Made by a program: the position numbers and the translations under genes. Under the pieces are notes generated by a model. That model was given only the letters and a program-made list of their open reading frames with translations, was not told where the DNA came from and searched no databases. DNA of 35,212 nucleotides from Chromatiaceae bacterium (lineage in GTDB: Bacteria; Pseudomonadota; Gammaproteobacteria; Chromatiales; Chromatiaceae). The stretch's first letter is position 1. Each line of letters begins with the position of its first letter. This document shows, piece after piece, positions 5,357-35,212 of the stretch. The stretch spans positions 1 to 35,212 of the forward strand of contig JANQGF010000271.1 in the NCBI GenBank assembly GCA_028277465.1. Direction: 5' to 3'.

Positions 5357-5803
5357 TCAACCTTGGCGGGCCGGATGCCGCACCAGCGCGATCCAGTAAT
5401 CACACAGCTTGCGAACCGCCTCGACGAAGACATCGACGTCCAGCGGCTTGACGACGAAACCGGATGCGCCGAGGTCGTAGGAGGCCAGGATGTCGCTCTG
5501 GGCCTCGGAGGTGGTCAGCACCACGACCGGAATGCTGCGTAGACCAGGGATGGATTTCATCCTTTGAAGGAACTGGAGTCCAGGCATGCGAGGCATGTCG
5601 AGATCGAGCAGGATCAGGTCCGGATGGGGTACATCCGCGTAGGGCGTCTCGCCTTGGAGAAAGGCGAGCGCCTCGACTCCGTCGCGCACATGGTGCAGCT
5701 TGACTGGCAACCGACCTTCCGCGAACGCCATGTGGGCCAGATGGGCATCCGCCGGCTCGTCTTCGACCAGCAAGAGGTTGAACAAGGATTGCTCGAGGGT
5801 CAT
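5357..5803 (-). CDS. Single-domain response regulator (CheY/Rcp1-like)
   Basis: 148 residues, one receiver domain and no output domain. The acidic pocket (VEDEPAD, 13-19), phospho-acceptor D67 (LILLDLDMP), conserved Thr (VVLTTS) and Lys (FVVKPLD) are all present. The long loop before the phosphorylated Asp and the F(L/V)..K end are typical of Rcp1-like receivers that partner with phytochrome-class histidine kinases. It lies between the kinase (72 bp upstream) and the REC-GGDEF-EAL protein (12 bp downstream), all in one direction. It is therefore a likely phosphate acceptor from that kinase, acting either as a shuttle or by competing with the receiver of the downstream protein. The partner is inferred from position only. 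Confidence 0.93.
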   Translation of the reverse strand: MTLEQSLFNLLLVEDEPADAHLAHMAFAEGRLPVKLHHVRDGVEALAFLQGETPYADVPHPDLILLDLDMPRMPGLQFLQRMKSIPGLRSIPVVVLTTSEAQSDILASYDLGASGFVVKPLDVDVFVEAVRKLCDYWIALVRHPARQG

Positions 5804-5875
5804 GGCTGATCACCGGCGATCCGCTCATTGGCTAAAGCATAACCGCCTTTGCCACGAAAGTACGCTGCAGGCGCT

Positions 5876-8578
5876 TCAGCCCGCCCTTTGCAGTGTGAAC
5901 CGGAAGCGGCTACCGCGCCCTGCGCCTCTCGATTCCACCCAGATGCGCCCGCCATGTCGATCCAGGATCTTGCGACAAACCGCCAGTCCAATGCCGGTAC
6001 CTTCGTAGGTTTCGCGGCCGTGCAGGCGTTGAAAGAGCTTGAACAGATGCTCGAATTGGGTCGGGTCGATACCAATGCCATTGTCCTCGACGCAGAACTG
6101 CCAGAACTCGGCGTTTGACGCCACGCTCAGGGTCACCAGGGGTCGGCGCTCTCGCGCCCGATATTTGATGGCGTTGCCGATCAGATTCTGGAACAGCCGG
6201 GTCAACTCGTTGCGGTTGGCAAGGACCCGAGGCCAGTCGCCCTCCAGCCTGATCTCGGCCTGGGCCTCCGCGATCGCCGGTCCGAGAAACCTGAGCGCCT
6301 CCTCGATCGCGCCACGGCTCTCGATCGGCGCCAACGGCTCGTCCATGCGTCCTACCCGCGAATACTCGAGCAAAGAGACCAACATCTGATCCATGCGCAC
6401 GGCTCCCTCGGTGACGAATCCCATCATTTGGCGCGTTTCCTCGTCCAGGTGTGGGTCCAACCGCCGCTGGAGGAGTTGCACATAGCTGTTGACCATGCGC
6501 AGCGGCTGCCGGAGATCGTGCGAGGCGATGTAGGCGCACTGCTCCAGCTCGGCGTTGGAGCGGGCCAACTGCTCATGTTGCTCGGCGAGCGCCTGCTCGG
6601 CCCGCTTGCGCTCGGTGATGTCGACGACGAGTCCGACAAAATTGATGGGTGTTCCCCGCTGGTCGCGGACGGCCGAGGCGGCGATGTCCACCCACAGCAA
6701 CTTACCGGACTTGGTGAGATAGCGCTTCTCGAGCCGGTACTCGTCGCGCGCCCCCTCTTCGATCTCATCGAGCAACCCGACTTCTATTGCCAGATCATCC
6801 GGGTGAGTGAAGCAGGCGAAGTTCATGCCTCGCAGCTCCTCGAGACGATATTCCACCAGCTTGGCGAAACAGGCGTTGACTTTGATCAGGTTGCCTTCTC
6901 GGTCTGTGAAGGCGATACCCGCGTTGGCGCGCTCGAAGATGCTGCGTAGACGCTCCTCCGAGGCGCGCAGTGCCTGATCGGTCATCACCTGGGCGGTGAT
7001 GTCCTGCACGGTGCCAATGCCTGCCCACAACCGGCCTTCGGTGTCGAACAACAGCTCGGCCTGCTCGCGAACCCATTTGGTCCCGTCGCCGACCAGGATG
7101 CGATGATCGATCGCATACTCGGCTCCCTTCAGGGTCGCCCGCCAGGCTGCGTCGACCGAGGCGCGATCGTCCGGGTGGACACACTTCAGAAAGACCTCGT
7201 AGGACAGCGGTGTACGCGCGTCTACCCCGAAGATTCGGTAGGTCTCCTCCGACCACTCGAGGCGATGGCCGGCTAGATCCAGGTGCCAGCTTCCGATGCG
7301 AGCCACCTTCTGGGCGCGCTCGAGATTCCTCTCGCTCTCCTCGTAGCGGCTCTGGCTCTCGCGCAGCGCCCGGGTACGCTCGGTCACTCGTTCCTCCAAG
7401 CGCGTCTGCTCTTCTGCCAACCGATCGGCCATTCGGTTGAAGCTCGTGGCCAACCCGCGTAACTCGCGGCACCCGGCGATGGCCGCGCGCTCGCCCAGAT
7501 CGCCCGCGGCGATGCGTCGTGTCGCGGCAGCCAGGCGTTGGATCGGATGGCTAAGGCTGCGGCCAAACCAAAAGGCAGCCGTACCGGCGAGGAGCAGGAA
7601 CAGCGCGAGTGTGGTCAGGCTGTCGTCTCGCAGCCGACGGGCGGGTGCGAGTGCCTCCTGTGCGTCCATTTTGACCACCATGCCCCAGCCCAATGCGGGC
7701 AGGTGGCGCCAGGCGGCGGCGACCTCGTTCAGGGCATAGTCCCAGGTCAGTCCGCTGCCATGTGTGCCCTCGAGGGCGGCCTGCGTCGTTGGGGGTGTCC
7801 TCTCGAGTGCCATCCTGGGATGCAAGGCGGCGTCCTGCCGATGGCGAAGCGGCCCGATATAGAGCGCTTGGCCTTGATCGGCCTGCGCCAGCACCGTCTC
7901 GCCGGTCTGCCCCAGGCTTGTGGTGTCGCTGGCGACCGCGATCAAGTTATCCAGGTCGAGTCGCAGGACCAGCGTACCGAGCAGTTGACCCGCGGCGAGC
8001 ACGGGGGAGACCAGTAAGATGACCGGCTGGCCGTCGGACGCGGTGTGGAGTGCGGCGGGCGTGGTCTGGCCTTCCGAAAGCGCGATGGCCTCGCGGTATG
8101 CGCGTGCAAGCTGGGTGTCGCCATCCTGGCCGCTGAAGGGGTTGGTACCGGGATCGGCCTCGCGTGGAAAGGAGAACAGGAGATTGCCGGAGGTGTCGAC
8201 GAGCATGAGATCCTCGTAGTCACCCGCGTCGAAGAGGGCCTGGAGATCAGCACGGAAACTCGCCACGGCCGAATCCGAGGTGCTGCGTCCCTGCGCGAGC
8301 CCCGCGGATGTCCGCATCGCTTCGCGGGTGGCGGTCGCCATCGCAAGCACACGGCTGTCGGTGAGACGCTCGTTCAAATAGGCGTCGATCTGGTCTACCT
8401 TCTTGTCAGCGATGGATGACAGATTGAGCAGGGTGGTCTCCCGCAGGGACTGCTCGAAGGCGAGCAAGTGCAGCCCGGCCAGCCCCGCGAGGGGCAAGGC
8501 GGAGAGGAGTAGAAAGGCCGACATCAGGCGGACGAGAAGGCGCTTTCCGTCCTCTGCGCTGCGGTCGTTGCGGCTCAT
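5876..8578 (-). CDS. Membrane sensor histidine kinase dCache-HAMP-PAS-PAS-HisKA-HATPase
   Basis: 900 residues from the chosen start. TM1 is at about 18-38. An extracytoplasmic dCache-like region is followed by TM2 and a HAMP linker (LSHPIQRLAAATRRIAAGD). Two PAS domains follow, the first of the PAS_3 type (KVARIGSWHLDL). The dimerisation/phospho-acceptor helix is ASHDLRQPL with His about 687. The ATPase domain has N-box NLIGNAIKY (about 797-805), DNGIGID and GTGIGLAV. The HDLRQPL form of the H-box is that of phytochrome-like kinases, in line with the Rcp1-like receiver next door. The frame is open upstream to 8719, but ATG 8578 is preferred: GAGG lies 6-7 nt upstream and the membrane segment then sits near the N-terminus. 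First gene of the minus-strand unit that ends in polA. The ligand is unknown. Confidence 0.92.
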   Translation of the reverse strand: MSRNDRSAEDGKRLLVRLMSAFLLLSALPLAGLAGLHLLAFEQSLRETTLLNLSSIADKKVDQIDAYLNERLTDSRVLAMATATREAMRTSAGLAQGRSTSDSAVASFRADLQALFDAGDYEDLMLVDTSGNLLFSFPREADPGTNPFSGQDGDTQLARAYREAIALSEGQTTPAALHTASDGQPVILLVSPVLAAGQLLGTLVLRLDLDNLIAVASDTTSLGQTGETVLAQADQGQALYIGPLRHRQDAALHPRMALERTPPTTQAALEGTHGSGLTWDYALNEVAAAWRHLPALGWGMVVKMDAQEALAPARRLRDDSLTTLALFLLLAGTAAFWFGRSLSHPIQRLAAATRRIAAGDLGERAAIAGCRELRGLATSFNRMADRLAEEQTRLEERVTERTRALRESQSRYEESERNLERAQKVARIGSWHLDLAGHRLEWSEETYRIFGVDARTPLSYEVFLKCVHPDDRASVDAAWRATLKGAEYAIDHRILVGDGTKWVREQAELLFDTEGRLWAGIGTVQDITAQVMTDQALRASEERLRSIFERANAGIAFTDREGNLIKVNACFAKLVEYRLEELRGMNFACFTHPDDLAIEVGLLDEIEEGARDEYRLEKRYLTKSGKLLWVDIAASAVRDQRGTPINFVGLVVDITERKRAEQALAEQHEQLARSNAELEQCAYIASHDLRQPLRMVNSYVQLLQRRLDPHLDEETRQMMGFVTEGAVRMDQMLVSLLEYSRVGRMDEPLAPIESRGAIEEALRFLGPAIAEAQAEIRLEGDWPRVLANRNELTRLFQNLIGNAIKYRARERRPLVTLSVASNAEFWQFCVEDNGIGIDPTQFEHLFKLFQRLHGRETYEGTGIGLAVCRKILDRHGGRIWVESRGAGRGSRFRFTLQRAG

Positions 8579-29877: not shown

Positions 29878-30438
29878 TCAGCTCCAGAGGTTGCTGAGCT
29901 CAAGCTTCAGAGCATCGAAGGGCGCAACCGCGATGGCGTCGTTCCCGGATGCCTCGGCGAGTAAACGCCACTTGCCGCTGTCTAGTGCATAGGCCTCCAG
30001 GATTCGCCGCTTGGGATCGACGAGCCAAGCGTAGGCCACGCCATGGTGGGCGTAGATGGGCAGTTTGACTTCACGATCTTTGCTTTCGGTCGATGGGGAA
30101 AGGACCTCGCAGATCCAGTCCGGGACGACCTCGAATCGATGGCCTTCGGGTATCTGCGGCATGCGCTCTTTGCGCCAGCCCGCCAGATCCGGAACTGTGA
30201 CCTCCTCGTCTGTGATGAAGTGGATCTCGGGCTCGACGATGATCCACCAGCCCCCCGGGCCTCCTCGGCCTCTACCGTAGGCGTTGCCGATGTCGATGCT
30301 GAGCTCGGTCTCAGCGCGTGCATGCGGACCCGTCGGTCGCGGTTGGGCATGAAGTTGGCCGTTGAGAATTTCGCCGGTCAATCCCTCGGGCAGGGCTTCG
30401 AGCTGTTCGTAAAGTGTTGGTTTGTAGGCATGTTGCAT
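29878..30438 (-). CDS. Uma2-family (DUF820) PD-(D/E)XK nuclease-like protein
   Basis: 186 residues, full family length. The fold core is visible: EILNGQL near 23, EPEIHF (69-74), VPDLAGW (81-87), PDWICEVLSPST (106-117) and DREVKLPIYAHHGVAYAWLVDP (121-142). These make a restriction-endonuclease-like active site with E/D and K. Family members are very numerous in cyanobacteria and sulfur bacteria, often in mobile or accessory regions, and their biological role is unclear. The ATG at 30438 starts MQHAYKPTLYEQLEALPEG. It lies 15 bp downstream of the antitoxin-like gene. About 190 bp of AT-richer DNA with no gene separates it from the sulfur globule terminator. Confidence 0.88.
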   Translation of the reverse strand: MQHAYKPTLYEQLEALPEGLTGEILNGQLHAQPRPTGPHARAETELSIDIGNAYGRGRGGPGGWWIIVEPEIHFITDEEVTVPDLAGWRKERMPQIPEGHRFEVVPDWICEVLSPSTESKDREVKLPIYAHHGVAYAWLVDPKRRILEAYALDSGKWRLLAEASGNDAIAVAPFDALKLELSNLWS

Positions 30439-30453
30439 GGCTGTTGCCTTATA

Positions 30454-30843
30454 TTAAGGATCTTTTTCGAACCACGAAGAGCGCGAAGGAAAACCAAAAC
30501 AATCTTCTTGACGTGTTTTTGGTGGTGAGCTTTCCAGCACAAGGGTCTGTTCAAGATAGTCGGGTAAGGGCAGACCCCAAAGCCAAGCACTCCCCTCGGA
30601 ACCCGGTGTGCGCGTTTCCCCGCACGACGCACAAGCCTCGACAAGGCGCTCCCAGACACGCTCGAAGACGGCCTCGACCGTCCCGGCACGCAGCTCCGCC
30701 AGCCGGCGCTTGGCCTCGGCTGCCCACTGAGCGTCGATCTCGAACTGTGGCGGGTTCAGACTCCGCAGCAACGCGTCCATCATCAGGGCACGCTCCTCGA
30801 CGGGCAACGCGATCGCCTGTTCAATCAACTCTTTGGTGTTCAT
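30454..30843 (-). pseudogene. Degenerate orphan addiction-module antitoxin (PF09720-like) with a frame-shifted tail
   Basis: 129 codons. The first 55 or so (MNTKELIEQAIALPVEERALMM...LRSLNPP...WAAEAKRRLAELRAGTVEAV) are a clear addiction-module component of the type usually paired with a RelE/ParE toxin. The normal PGEEVFERV end is damaged: a few residues are missing (EAVFERVWERL). The remaining 60 residues look like out-of-frame translation (CASCGETRTPGSEG...), ending in DNA of the type ACCACGAAGAGCGCGAAGG, a common dispersed intergenic sequence in proteobacteria. No toxin gene follows; the Uma2 gene comes next. It may still make a truncated antitoxin. Confidence 0.6.
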
Positions 30844-31229: not shown

Positions 31230-33578
31230 TCAATCCGCCCGATGAAACAACGCTCGGTCGCCCGCCGAGACCAAGGACTCCAGGAACTGCTCGATCTCGC
31301 CGGGATCAAGCCCCCGTTGGCGCGCGGCGTCGACCACCAAGGCATATTCGTTCTCCAAACGTGTTGCGAAGGTGCCCGGATCATCGCAGTTGATCGTCAG
31401 GCGGACCCCGGGGTTTTGCTCACGAATCCAAAACAGCGGGTGGTCCCGCAGGTGTTCGAAGTCTCCGGTCGCGAGATTGGACGACGGATTCGTCTCCACG
31501 AAGATCCCCAAGCGCGCAATCTCGTCGAGCATCCAGCGCTGGAGGCGCTGAGTGTCCTCTTTGATCGTCTCCAGCGCATCGGGCGCGGTCCGTAACTGTT
31601 GCCGCGCCTGTCGGCACTCGTGGTCGTAGAGCTCGAGCCGGCGCAGGTCGGCCACCTTGTGGTCGACACCTCGAAGGGCCAGCCGGGACGGCGGTGAGCG
31701 GTGCCTCTGACGTTGCAGCTCGTAGAGTTCCGAGGCCGTTAATCGCTCGCGATAGAGCTCCCAGCTCAGCAGGTCGATCTCGTCGTCGAGGACACGCAAC
31801 GCCCGCTCGTCGACGCCGGGGATGGCCCGAAGCCTACGCGAGCACCAGGCCAGCGTATCCAGGGCCTCGCCCGCCGGAATCACGGTGTTCCCGGAGAGAG
31901 CGGCGAACCTGTAGAGATCGGTCCCGAGTGCGAGACCATGCCCAATTCGATCGCCCGGCCCCATCCGGCCATGTCTCATGATCTCCCAGATGGTCCTGAG
32001 ACCCGTCACCGGATGAAAAAAGTCCTCACCGGCGTGACAGGTCAGACCCAGTCGCGGCAACTGCCATGGGGGCCGATGCATGCCCGACGCTGCCACGCGA
32101 CGCCAGTGGCTCAGATGAGGTGAGTCCGCGAGTCCGGTCTCACCCGCCCGGTCATCGCCGAGACCATCGCCCCGCAGCAGCCGGATGTAAGGGGTAAAGA
32201 CATCGATCGGACTGTTGCGCTCGATGTTCGCGACATCGATACCGACGATCAGCCGGGCCAGGCTCGGATGGCGCCAGCGAAAGACCTGGAGCACGCCGGT
32301 CAAACGGTCCAGCTGGGTACGTAGGCGCCCGAACGCGACCGGGTGGGACGGGTCATCTCGGGAGCGGATCAAGTGGATCACGAACCACACCCGCAGCGGG
32401 CGCCCGTCGTCCTTCCGAGGCCTCAGTAATGGGCTGCGGCCTTCTTGCTTCTGCCAGCTTGTCAGGAACCGGACATACTCCTTGACGGACTCCAAAGGGC
32501 TGATGCGCAGCTCGATGCTGTGGAGATTCGGAGAGGCCCCGGCAAAATGAACCATGGACATGAAGCGCCGCCACTTCAGCCGTTCCGACCGCCCCGGGGT
32601 GAGGGGACGGGCACGATCGAAGAAACGGCGGAAGTTCTCCAGACCGGGGTTGCTGCCCGGGCTCTGGACATGACGCCTCAGGAACAGGTGCTTGCCATAG
32701 AGATAGCGATCGAGCTGAAGGACCTCGGGCGGTGTCAGCCGCCCCTGCAGCAGGCGCACCCAGAGCGCGCTGAGCAGACGACGCTCCGGAAGCAACTGCT
32801 CGTGGGGTAGCCACTGCGTCTCGGCCGAGCTCCCCATGCCGTCGAGCTCTTGGGCAGACCCCGGAATGTGTTGCGAGCGCATCAGCGCATGCCGCGCACG
32901 AATGGCGTGCCGAATCGCCTGGACCTCGCCGCCCCATTCCCGTAAGGCATCGCTGTTGCTTGCCCGGCGCTCGGCTTCGGCCCGACGATAGAAGGCGAAA
33001 CGCTCGCGTGGCAGCTCGCCATTGACGAGCCGCAGCCACAACAGCGGCATGCACTCGCAGCCTTCGAGATGGGTGTGGATGTCGGCGATCCCGCTCCCGG
33101 GACGTGCCGGAAGACGCTCGACGTTGCGACTCAGCAGGGCATCGTCGCAGGTCACATAGACATCCCAGTGTCTGAGATCTCCCGGACGCAGTGGATGCTT
33201 GAACTGCCTGGCGAATGCGAGGCAGATTAGGCAATCGGGGTCGAGCCAGCGATTGACGTCTCGCCAGCGCTCGAAGCCGTCCAACGGAATCCAGGGGGCG
33301 CCCTGATAGAAGTGGATCTGGATGCCCTGCTCATCCAGGACGACCTGGTACCATTGGTGCAGACTCGGGTACTGACGAAAAAAGGCGTCGACCCGATAGC
33401 CGATGTCATCGATGCGCAGCTGCGGGAATCGCTGCTCGAGGGCGAGACGGAAGCTGCGGAGCACCCGATCGCCGGCATCGGCGGCATCGACCGAGACGAT
33501 GCCGGCATGGAGCCGGGGCGGATAGAGCAGGAAGCGAATGGCGATGGCGCCGAGATCGAGGGTCACATTACTGCACAT
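31230..33578 (-). CDS. rdrB: Large divergent adenosine deaminase, RdrB-like (RADAR defence)
   Basis: 782 residues, more than twice a housekeeping adenosine deaminase (about 340). The deaminase site is complete but spread out: H168-x-H170 (ADIHTHLEG), H515 and E518 (CHAGEDF), H547 (RIGHGLALG), NPSSN (697-701) and D732-D733 (NCDDPGTF). These are the zinc ligands and catalytic Glu/Asp of the family. A 160-residue N-terminal domain and a roughly 340-residue insertion between HxH and HAGE are extra. This size and layout fit RdrB of RADAR, whose partner RdrA is encoded directly upstream; here too an overlapping gene precedes it (11 bp overlap). ATG 33578 is used; GTG 33566 is an alternative. The deaminase assignment is firm, the RADAR assignment is inferred from size, insertions and context. 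No RdrC/RdrD-like membrane gene follows. Confidence 0.75.
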   Translation of the reverse strand: MCSNVTLDLGAIAIRFLLYPPRLHAGIVSVDAADAGDRVLRSFRLALEQRFPQLRIDDIGYRVDAFFRQYPSLHQWYQVVLDEQGIQIHFYQGAPWIPLDGFERWRDVNRWLDPDCLICLAFARQFKHPLRPGDLRHWDVYVTCDDALLSRNVERLPARPGSGIADIHTHLEGCECMPLLWLRLVNGELPRERFAFYRRAEAERRASNSDALREWGGEVQAIRHAIRARHALMRSQHIPGSAQELDGMGSSAETQWLPHEQLLPERRLLSALWVRLLQGRLTPPEVLQLDRYLYGKHLFLRRHVQSPGSNPGLENFRRFFDRARPLTPGRSERLKWRRFMSMVHFAGASPNLHSIELRISPLESVKEYVRFLTSWQKQEGRSPLLRPRKDDGRPLRVWFVIHLIRSRDDPSHPVAFGRLRTQLDRLTGVLQVFRWRHPSLARLIVGIDVANIERNSPIDVFTPYIRLLRGDGLGDDRAGETGLADSPHLSHWRRVAASGMHRPPWQLPRLGLTCHAGEDFFHPVTGLRTIWEIMRHGRMGPGDRIGHGLALGTDLYRFAALSGNTVIPAGEALDTLAWCSRRLRAIPGVDERALRVLDDEIDLLSWELYRERLTASELYELQRQRHRSPPSRLALRGVDHKVADLRRLELYDHECRQARQQLRTAPDALETIKEDTQRLQRWMLDEIARLGIFVETNPSSNLATGDFEHLRDHPLFWIREQNPGVRLTINCDDPGTFATRLENEYALVVDAARQRGLDPGEIEQFLESLVSAGDRALFHRAD

Positions 33579-35212
33579 CGTCGACCGCGGCGAGGGCCTC
33601 TGCGATCACCGCGGCCGGGACCCCGACCCAGTCGGCCCAAGCCTGGACGTCGATCCCGGCCTGGCGCTTCGCCGGTTGCGGCGCTGGAGGACTGGCGGAG
33701 GGTGTATTTTCCAGCGCCCGGTATCTCCTCATCAGCGGGTTGACCCAGCGATCGAGCCAAGGGGGTGCCCCACCAGGCTTGGCGGGCGGCTCGTCGGGCA
33801 TGTCGCCAGGCGGCAACAGATCGCTATAGCACCACGGATCGTGAGGCAGGCCCTTCAGAACCTTCCTGAGATCGCCGATCAGCCCCTTCAGCGTGGCCCG
33901 CTCCGTGTCCGTCGGCAGATCCAGCTCACCCATATCCAAGGGGCGTTGTAGAGCCCAGCACAGCAACAGCCGATCGCGTGCAGACAAGTCACCGGATAGG
34001 GTCCCCAACAGGGTGCGCGCCGCTTTGAGTGCCGCGATCAGGTCTACACTGCCGATCTCGACCTCAGGGATTCGAGGACCGCGCCTTGCCAAGTTGTCGA
34101 CGGCTGCTGCCCCAGTCATCGGCTGGGAGCCTTGCGCCACGGCCCAAGCCTGATAGCTTGCGACGACCAAGATGTCACGGATATCGGCGATGCGGTGACG
34201 ACGCCGGGCCGGCCGGGTCCAGACACCTTCCTCCAGGACCCTGATCAAAGTTGCCGGCCAAGGATCGGCAAGCCAATCCGATAGGACTCCCACCGACTCG
34301 TCCGCGGATTCAATGAAATGCTTGAGGAAGGCCCGACGGTACGCTTGCTCATCCAACTCGTCTGGCGGCCGGACGCGACCAGCCTCCTCAGGCCGCAGGG
34401 CCTTCCCCAGGATCCAAATGCGATGGGCAAGGACAAACGCACGCGTCGCGGACGGCGTCCGGCTGTCCGTGGCCACCTCCGCGTAGCCCTGCCCTCGATA
34501 GCGCTCGAGTTGCGCAGACAGCCAATCCAGGCTCTGGAACTTGCCGGGCGTCAAGCGCGCCAACTCGCGCCGCAGGTCGATCGGAGGCTCACCGGCGCGA
34601 TCGACATCACGACCGGTCGCCACGGTCAACGGACCGTCGCGCAGCACACCGACGAGCTCTGACAGGTACAGGCAGTTCGGCGGTGGCTTCGCCGGATCCA
34701 GCGCATCCGGGGGCTCGCCGGCATCGAGCCGTCGGGCAACCTCCTCCACCTGAAGTGCTCTGGTCAGATCGATGCGCTGGGCCCCGTCCGGCTCCGGCGC
34801 GACGCGCTCGACCCGAACACGCCGGGCCCACGCCCCCGCATCCCAGGCACATCGCTCGGCATCAATCGCAAATGCGAAGACCTGAAACTCGAGGGGCGAA
34901 ACGGATTGGCTGGGAAGGTCGGTTCCCTGGGGGTCCAGGAAACCAGCCGATTCCTGGACCGGACCCTTCGGCGTGAACTGCTGGAGTGCAATCAGGATTC
35001 CGTGCAGCGGGTCGTCAATCGCCCGAGCGGCATCGTCACGTCCCTCCAAACTCGGCAAGCGTAGCAACAACTCGGGTAGCAGGGAGTCCGGCTCTTCGTC
35101 CTGCTCGAGTAGCCGCTCGAGCTGTTCCCCGAGGATCAGCAGATCCCGCGTCGTGAAGGCGGTCAGCAATTCGACGAAGCGCATCCGCCATAGGAACAAT
35201 GAGCGCCTGAGT
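33568..35212 (-). CDS. C-terminal part of a large helical protein, possible RdrA ATPase partner (runs off right edge)
   Basis: The frame is open to the window end (547 codons visible); the first bases encode LRRSLFLWRMRF with no stop or clear start, so the true start is probably outside. The visible part is largely helical and charged (FTTRDLLILGEQLERLLEQDEEPDSLLPELLL; RRRHRIADIRDILVVASYQAWAV) and ends in a Pro-rich linker and a short WADWVGVPAAVIAEALAAV tail. No Walker A, Walker B or other enzyme motif is seen. That is what one expects for the C-terminal helical half of an RdrA-type protein, whose AAA+ domain is N-terminal, but it is not proof. Its stop overlaps the start of the deaminase gene by 11 bp, so the two are translated together. 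Confidence 0.55.
   Translation of the reverse strand, partial: LRRSLFLWRMRFVELLTAFTTRDLLILGEQLERLLEQDEEPDSLLPELLLRLPSLEGRDDAARAIDDPLHGILIALQQFTPKGPVQESAGFLDPQGTDLPSQSVSPLEFQVFAFAIDAERCAWDAGAWARRVRVERVAPEPDGAQRIDLTRALQVEEVARRLDAGEPPDALDPAKPPPNCLYLSELVGVLRDGPLTVATGRDVDRAGEPPIDLRRELARLTPGKFQSLDWLSAQLERYRGQGYAEVATDSRTPSATRAFVLAHRIWILGKALRPEEAGRVRPPDELDEQAYRRAFLKHFIESADESVGVLSDWLADPWPATLIRVLEEGVWTRPARRRHRIADIRDILVVASYQAWAVAQGSQPMTGAAAVDNLARRGPRIPEVEIGSVDLIAALKAARTLLGTLSGDLSARDRLLLCWALQRPLDMGELDLPTDTERATLKGLIGDLRKVLKGLPHDPWCYSDLLPPGDMPDEPPAKPGGAPPWLDRWVNPLMRRYRALENTPSASPPAPQPAKRQAGIDVQAWADWVGVPAAVIAEALAAVDDVQ

Follow-up and report, generated by a model that had tools for sequence, protein, structure and literature searches.

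A very divergent RADAR anti-phage core preceded by a histidine kinase–receiver cassette with a possible role in its control

Two genes at the right-hand edge of a 35,212-nt stretch of Chromatiaceae DNA (the window, which is the whole of contig C287 and ends with it) encode, in our assessment with little room for doubt, the core of a very divergent RADAR anti-phage system: the AAA+ ATPase RdrA and the oversized adenosine deaminase RdrB. On the same strand, in the order HK–REC–X–RdrA–RdrB, they are preceded by genes for a membrane histidine kinase (HK), a stand-alone receiver (REC) and a 237-residue protein (X). We propose, at a probability of roughly 0.88, that a divergent RADAR core together with control by an HK–REC–X relay provides the full explanation of the locus; functional control of RdrAB by HK–REC–X, taken by itself, is plausible from gene linkage and stands at about even odds. 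The authors of the RADAR structure state that the infection signal activating the system is unknown (PMC9994260), and a RADAR clade that has its own kinase and receiver would offer a direct way to address that trigger, with REC Asp116 and HK His426 as single-residue handles.

The rdrB gene (31230..33578, minus strand) encodes the RADAR effector, a 782-residue deaminase, and its start overlaps by 11 bp (33568–33578) the 3′ end of rdrA, which lies on the same strand and remains open to the window edge (33568..35212; codons about 436–983 and the stop codon). The original prediction had described this arrangement, with the deaminase and its complete motifs next to an upstream gene cut by the edge, and had suggested extending the contig past position 35212 in search of an ATPase. 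A search of the genome identified a single further contig, C192, which begins with the same 99 bases with which the window ends. In the joined C287–C192 sequence, the upstream frame continues without interruption and yields a 983-residue AAA+ protein with an ATG start at joined position 36519 (rdrA, joined 33568..36519, minus strand); its Walker A (GSRGSGKS) and Walker B (FIDDCD) motifs lie on the C192 portion, as had been anticipated. Given that the overlap is exact and the frame open, we infer that the two contigs are adjacent and that the rdrA frame spans both. Downstream of rdrB, also on the minus strand, we find the neighbours named by the prediction, an Unstab_antitox gene (30454..30843), the domain of which covers only residues 13–59 of 129, and a Uma2 nuclease-like gene (29878..30438); the region 29878–30843 is probably accessory DNA. 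Beyond the HK gene, C192 (locus L003) carries an IS110-type transposase gene (7541–8188) and a gene for a 358-residue membrane protein without a family (5408–6484).

The deaminase retains every catalytic residue of RdrB, distributed over the motifs HTH (168–170), HAGED (515–519), GHG (546–548) and DDP (732–734); in an alignment of 46 RdrB sequences, His168, His170, His515, Glu518, His547 and Asp732 are invariant and Asp733 nearly so. Family models recognize it as RdrB (NCBIfam, E = 7e-43, 147 bits; PADLOC, 1.9e-28), RdrB gives the best matches in a sequence search of the PDB (1.4e-11, or 1e-40 with a profile of the clade), and hhalign against RdrB of the verified type returns E = 1e-58 across 682 columns. 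Among the verified-type references are proteins from Pantoea whose matches to the solved E. coli RADAR chains extend almost from end to end (1675 bits for RdrB and 1122 bits for RdrA). An AlphaFold model (pLDDT 89.6, pTM 0.92) has the large RdrB-type insertions and aligns with E. coli RdrB (8fnv) at Z 33.7 across 669 residues, that is, over the whole-length deaminase fold. It is extremely improbable that the gene encodes a purine adenosine deaminase of the housekeeping type and sits next to an unrelated ATPase gene. Pfam A_deaminase does match the C-terminal part (3.4e-12), but the family models favour RdrB over housekeeping deaminase by about 100 bits, the fold resembles housekeeping adenosine deaminases at Z 24.8 at most and over about 312 residues, an rdrA partner is present, and no RdrB relative was found in 56 genera of the window genome's family. 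A grouping with housekeeping purine enzymes, which the original prediction had named as one outcome that would speak against RADAR, was thus contradicted by models, PDB sequences and fold alike; the other outcome it had named, an upstream gene lacking an AAA+ domain, is contradicted by the Walker motifs of the completed rdrA.

RdrA is identified through its ATPase domain. The NCBIfam RdrA model matches the upstream protein at 2.1e-6 (26 bits), and a profile built from the RdrA proteins of the clade finds the solved E. coli RdrA (8fnt, 6.7e-10) and S. suis RdrA (8fnu, 0.0028) ahead of the next, unrelated entry (0.17), and hhalign aligns the AAA+ domain with that of verified-type RdrA at a probability of 99.1 (E = 1e-18). 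With the RdrA of the clade-mate L014 modelled as a stand-in for the window protein, the AAA+ part reaches Z 20.7 to RdrA and 9.3 to the next family; the C-terminal part of this model is helical and of low confidence. The C-terminal half of the window RdrA has no sequence match among its clade-mates, as expected given that RdrA conservation is confined to the ATPase domain (PMC9994260). A weak aminoglycoside acetyltransferase match in RdrA (17 bits) was taken as chance.

Tandem rdrA and rdrB genes in this order, together with the family models, the PDB sequence matches and the fold, bear out the RADAR identity that had been proposed, and membership of the pair in RADAR is near certain. Both proteins fall far under the curated cut-offs (26 versus 600 bits for RdrA, NF041743; 147 versus 800 bits for RdrB, NF041744), so standard annotation would miss them; these cut-offs are annotation limits for close members rather than biological features. 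The low scores, an RdrB identity of 20–25% to verified-type RADAR and the absence of the three-fold interface glutamates of E. coli RdrB (Glu595–Glu597, which align to a gap and Arg612) could also be read as signs of a sister system with the same architecture and another substrate, such as RNA, dATP only or a nucleotide messenger. We regard this as improbable: the catalytic residues are all retained, the fold matches RdrB over its whole length, and even the conserved parts of published RADAR systems are just 22–28% alike (PMC9994260). The glutamates were not taken as RADAR-defining, being reported for E. coli RdrB only.

The same annotation gap extends across the family. One pattern scan of about 85,000 genomes returned RdrB relatives from many phyla, at least 444 in number, of which 80 loci (L014–L093) were kept. 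Much of RADAR is therefore overlooked by the curated models. A large open reading frame lies directly upstream in 87 of the 93 RdrB loci from genomes, plasmids and viral contigs, with a strict Walker A motif in 79 of the 87. Phage records gave no RdrB match at E 1e-5, and viral contigs contributed only six RdrB, all distant. Several plasmid copies of RdrB with an upstream rdrA-like gene carry only the annotation 'hypothetical protein'. On the Rhizobium leguminosarum plasmid pRLN3 (L008, 10130–11731), rdrB is followed after about 900 bp by a same-strand gene for adenylosuccinate synthetase; this enzyme catalyses the first step of the IMP-to-AMP route and might therefore counter a build-up of inosine. 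A Candidatus Heimdallarchaeota MAG (L026, 3341–5725) encodes an RdrB relative behind a 671-residue open reading frame lacking a strict Walker A motif or an RdrA match, and RADAR-like genes may thus occur in Asgard archaea, unless this MAG is contaminated.

In a tree of 88 RdrB sequences, the window protein groups with that of L014, a Rhodospirillaceae MAG (SH-aLRT 90), within a deep clade of six members (SH-aLRT 100) that falls in Pseudomonadota and also contains Thalassospira (L034), Thiotrichales (L015), Rhodovulum (L016) and alphaproteobacterial (L017) loci; the RdrB model matches all six. L014 is the nearest relative, at 37% RdrB identity, and the class samples of the two genomes appear to have no genome in common, which suggests that they belong to different classes. 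As no RdrB relatives were found in 56 genera of its own family, the window genome probably acquired the operon laterally. Mobility can be followed in Thalassospira, where a gene for a 139-residue receiver-like protein (Response_reg, 0.0013) stands just ahead of rdrA. In a close relative, the leuS of which is 97% identical, exactly positions 5658–12203 of L034 are missing, comprising the receiver-like gene, rdrA and rdrB, and the flanks meet directly after the leuS stop codon; the receiver-like gene is likewise absent from 40 relatives. Because the block is missing as one piece, the receiver-like gene travelled with rdrAB, and the three genes entered as a single 6.5-kb insertion. The Thalassospira protein resembles the window receiver (z 7.6) and hardly that of L014 (z 1.0).

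The three minus-strand genes ahead of rdrA lie beyond the window, on C192. HK (joined 37777..39966; 729 residues) has eight hydrophobic segments, as in an eight-helix membrane protein, an HATPase_c domain (6.6e-17) and an HRINNLL motif, by which His426 is assigned as the phospho-acceptor. REC (joined 37362..37826) scores under the Pfam cut-off for Response_reg (9.4e-5) and carries Asp65, Asp66, Asp116, Ser156 and Lys182, so that the sequence hallmarks of a two-component pair are in place: HATPase_c with an acceptor histidine on one side, and the acidic pair, acceptor aspartate and lysine of a receiver on the other. X (joined 36652..37365) matches no Pfam family; the idea that it may be a winged-helix protein comes from a pattern read by eye, for which Pfam gave nothing. 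The start of X overlaps the REC stop through ATGA, 132 bases separate X from rdrA, and no terminator-like site was found on the rdrA strand in the stretch from HK to rdrA.

L014 holds the five genes in identical order, with the same ATGA overlap between REC and X. The membrane halves of the two kinases match at z 16.7 and the receivers at z 18.6, and the X proteins match weakly (z 3.0, a score reached by 6 of 400 shuffles). These two genomes are the only ones known to have a complete HK–REC–X set. The HK family was not found in 397 other sampled genomes of the phylum, 371 of the class of L014, 54 relatives, plasmids or viral contigs, an absence that holds for the sample; the large genome scans took even draws and fully scored two candidates per genome. 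Among 103 upstream open reading frames at other RADAR loci, the typical genes are those for restriction, TPR proteins and helicases, and neither Response_reg nor HATPase_c is among the families with three or more matches. We found no open paper describing a kinase-linked RADAR; a BREX paper and a paper on NTP-dependent conflict systems, both of which mention kinases, do not describe one.

By analogy with the E. coli system, the AAA+ ring of RdrA would dock on the RdrB deaminase shell and, upon infection, the assembly would deaminate ATP and dATP to ITP and dITP, halting phage replication (PMC9994260); ITP chemistry and phage defence by the window RdrAB are predicted on this basis. HK could sense an envelope or cell signal linked to infection and phosphorylate REC at Asp116, and REC, either directly or through X, which may act as an output or adaptor, could raise the expression or activity of RdrAB. 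In its most specific form the proposal is tentative, somewhat short of an even chance: a RADAR clade in which infection sensing has been split off to a transmembrane kinase–receiver relay, with phosphorylation controlling ATP-to-ITP abortive defence.

A serious contender, itself a little below an even bet, is that this RADAR stands alone, with RdrA sensing the phage and HK, REC and X forming an adjacent two-component system that serves some unrelated function. RADAR defends as a two-gene system in E. coli, C. rodentium and S. suis (PMC9994260), and two clade members have no HK–REC–X relay, a transposase (L016) or a membrane protein (L017) lying upstream of rdrA instead; the upstream region of L015 ends at the contig end. 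The gap between X and rdrA is consistent with such independence, as is, in L014 (7391–7480), a sigma-70-like promoter sequence read by eye in that gap (TTGACA-16-TATCAT), from which rdrAB may be transcribed separately; X could control this candidate promoter. The L014 contig also bears an additional, unrelated kinase. Against an incidental neighbourhood, HK–REC–X is found in identical order next to rdrAB in the two closest clade members, whose genomes apparently belong to different classes, the HK family was seen nowhere else among the sampled genomes, and in Thalassospira a REC-like gene moved with rdrAB. This linkage is what leads us to retain relay control of a divergent RADAR core as our preferred reading of the locus.

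Among the known systems nearest to the window locus is E. coli RADAR (RdrA, 8fnt and 8hr8; RdrB, 8fnv and 8hr7; PMC9994260), with which the locus shares tandem rdrA–rdrB genes, the AAA+ motifs, the RdrB catalytic residues and the whole-length RdrB fold; it differs in an RdrB that is only about 20% identical, in the missing interface glutamates and in the added upstream cassette. In RADAR an RdrA heptamer sits on an RdrB dodecamer. Cad1, a CARF-fused adenosine deaminase of type III CRISPR, is likewise a defence deaminase that converts ATP to ITP under a signal, but it is activated by cyclic oligoadenylates through its CARF domain and has no RdrA (PMC11645235); the window deaminase matches this type less well than RdrB (PADLOC CARF_ADA, 0.0012; Z 23.9 across 282 residues). 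The accessory membrane proteins known for RADAR are of the SLATT or Csx27 type (PMC11676413), and the window locus resembles those systems in joining a RADAR core to an extra membrane protein; here, in contrast, that protein is a histidine kinase with a receiver of its own.
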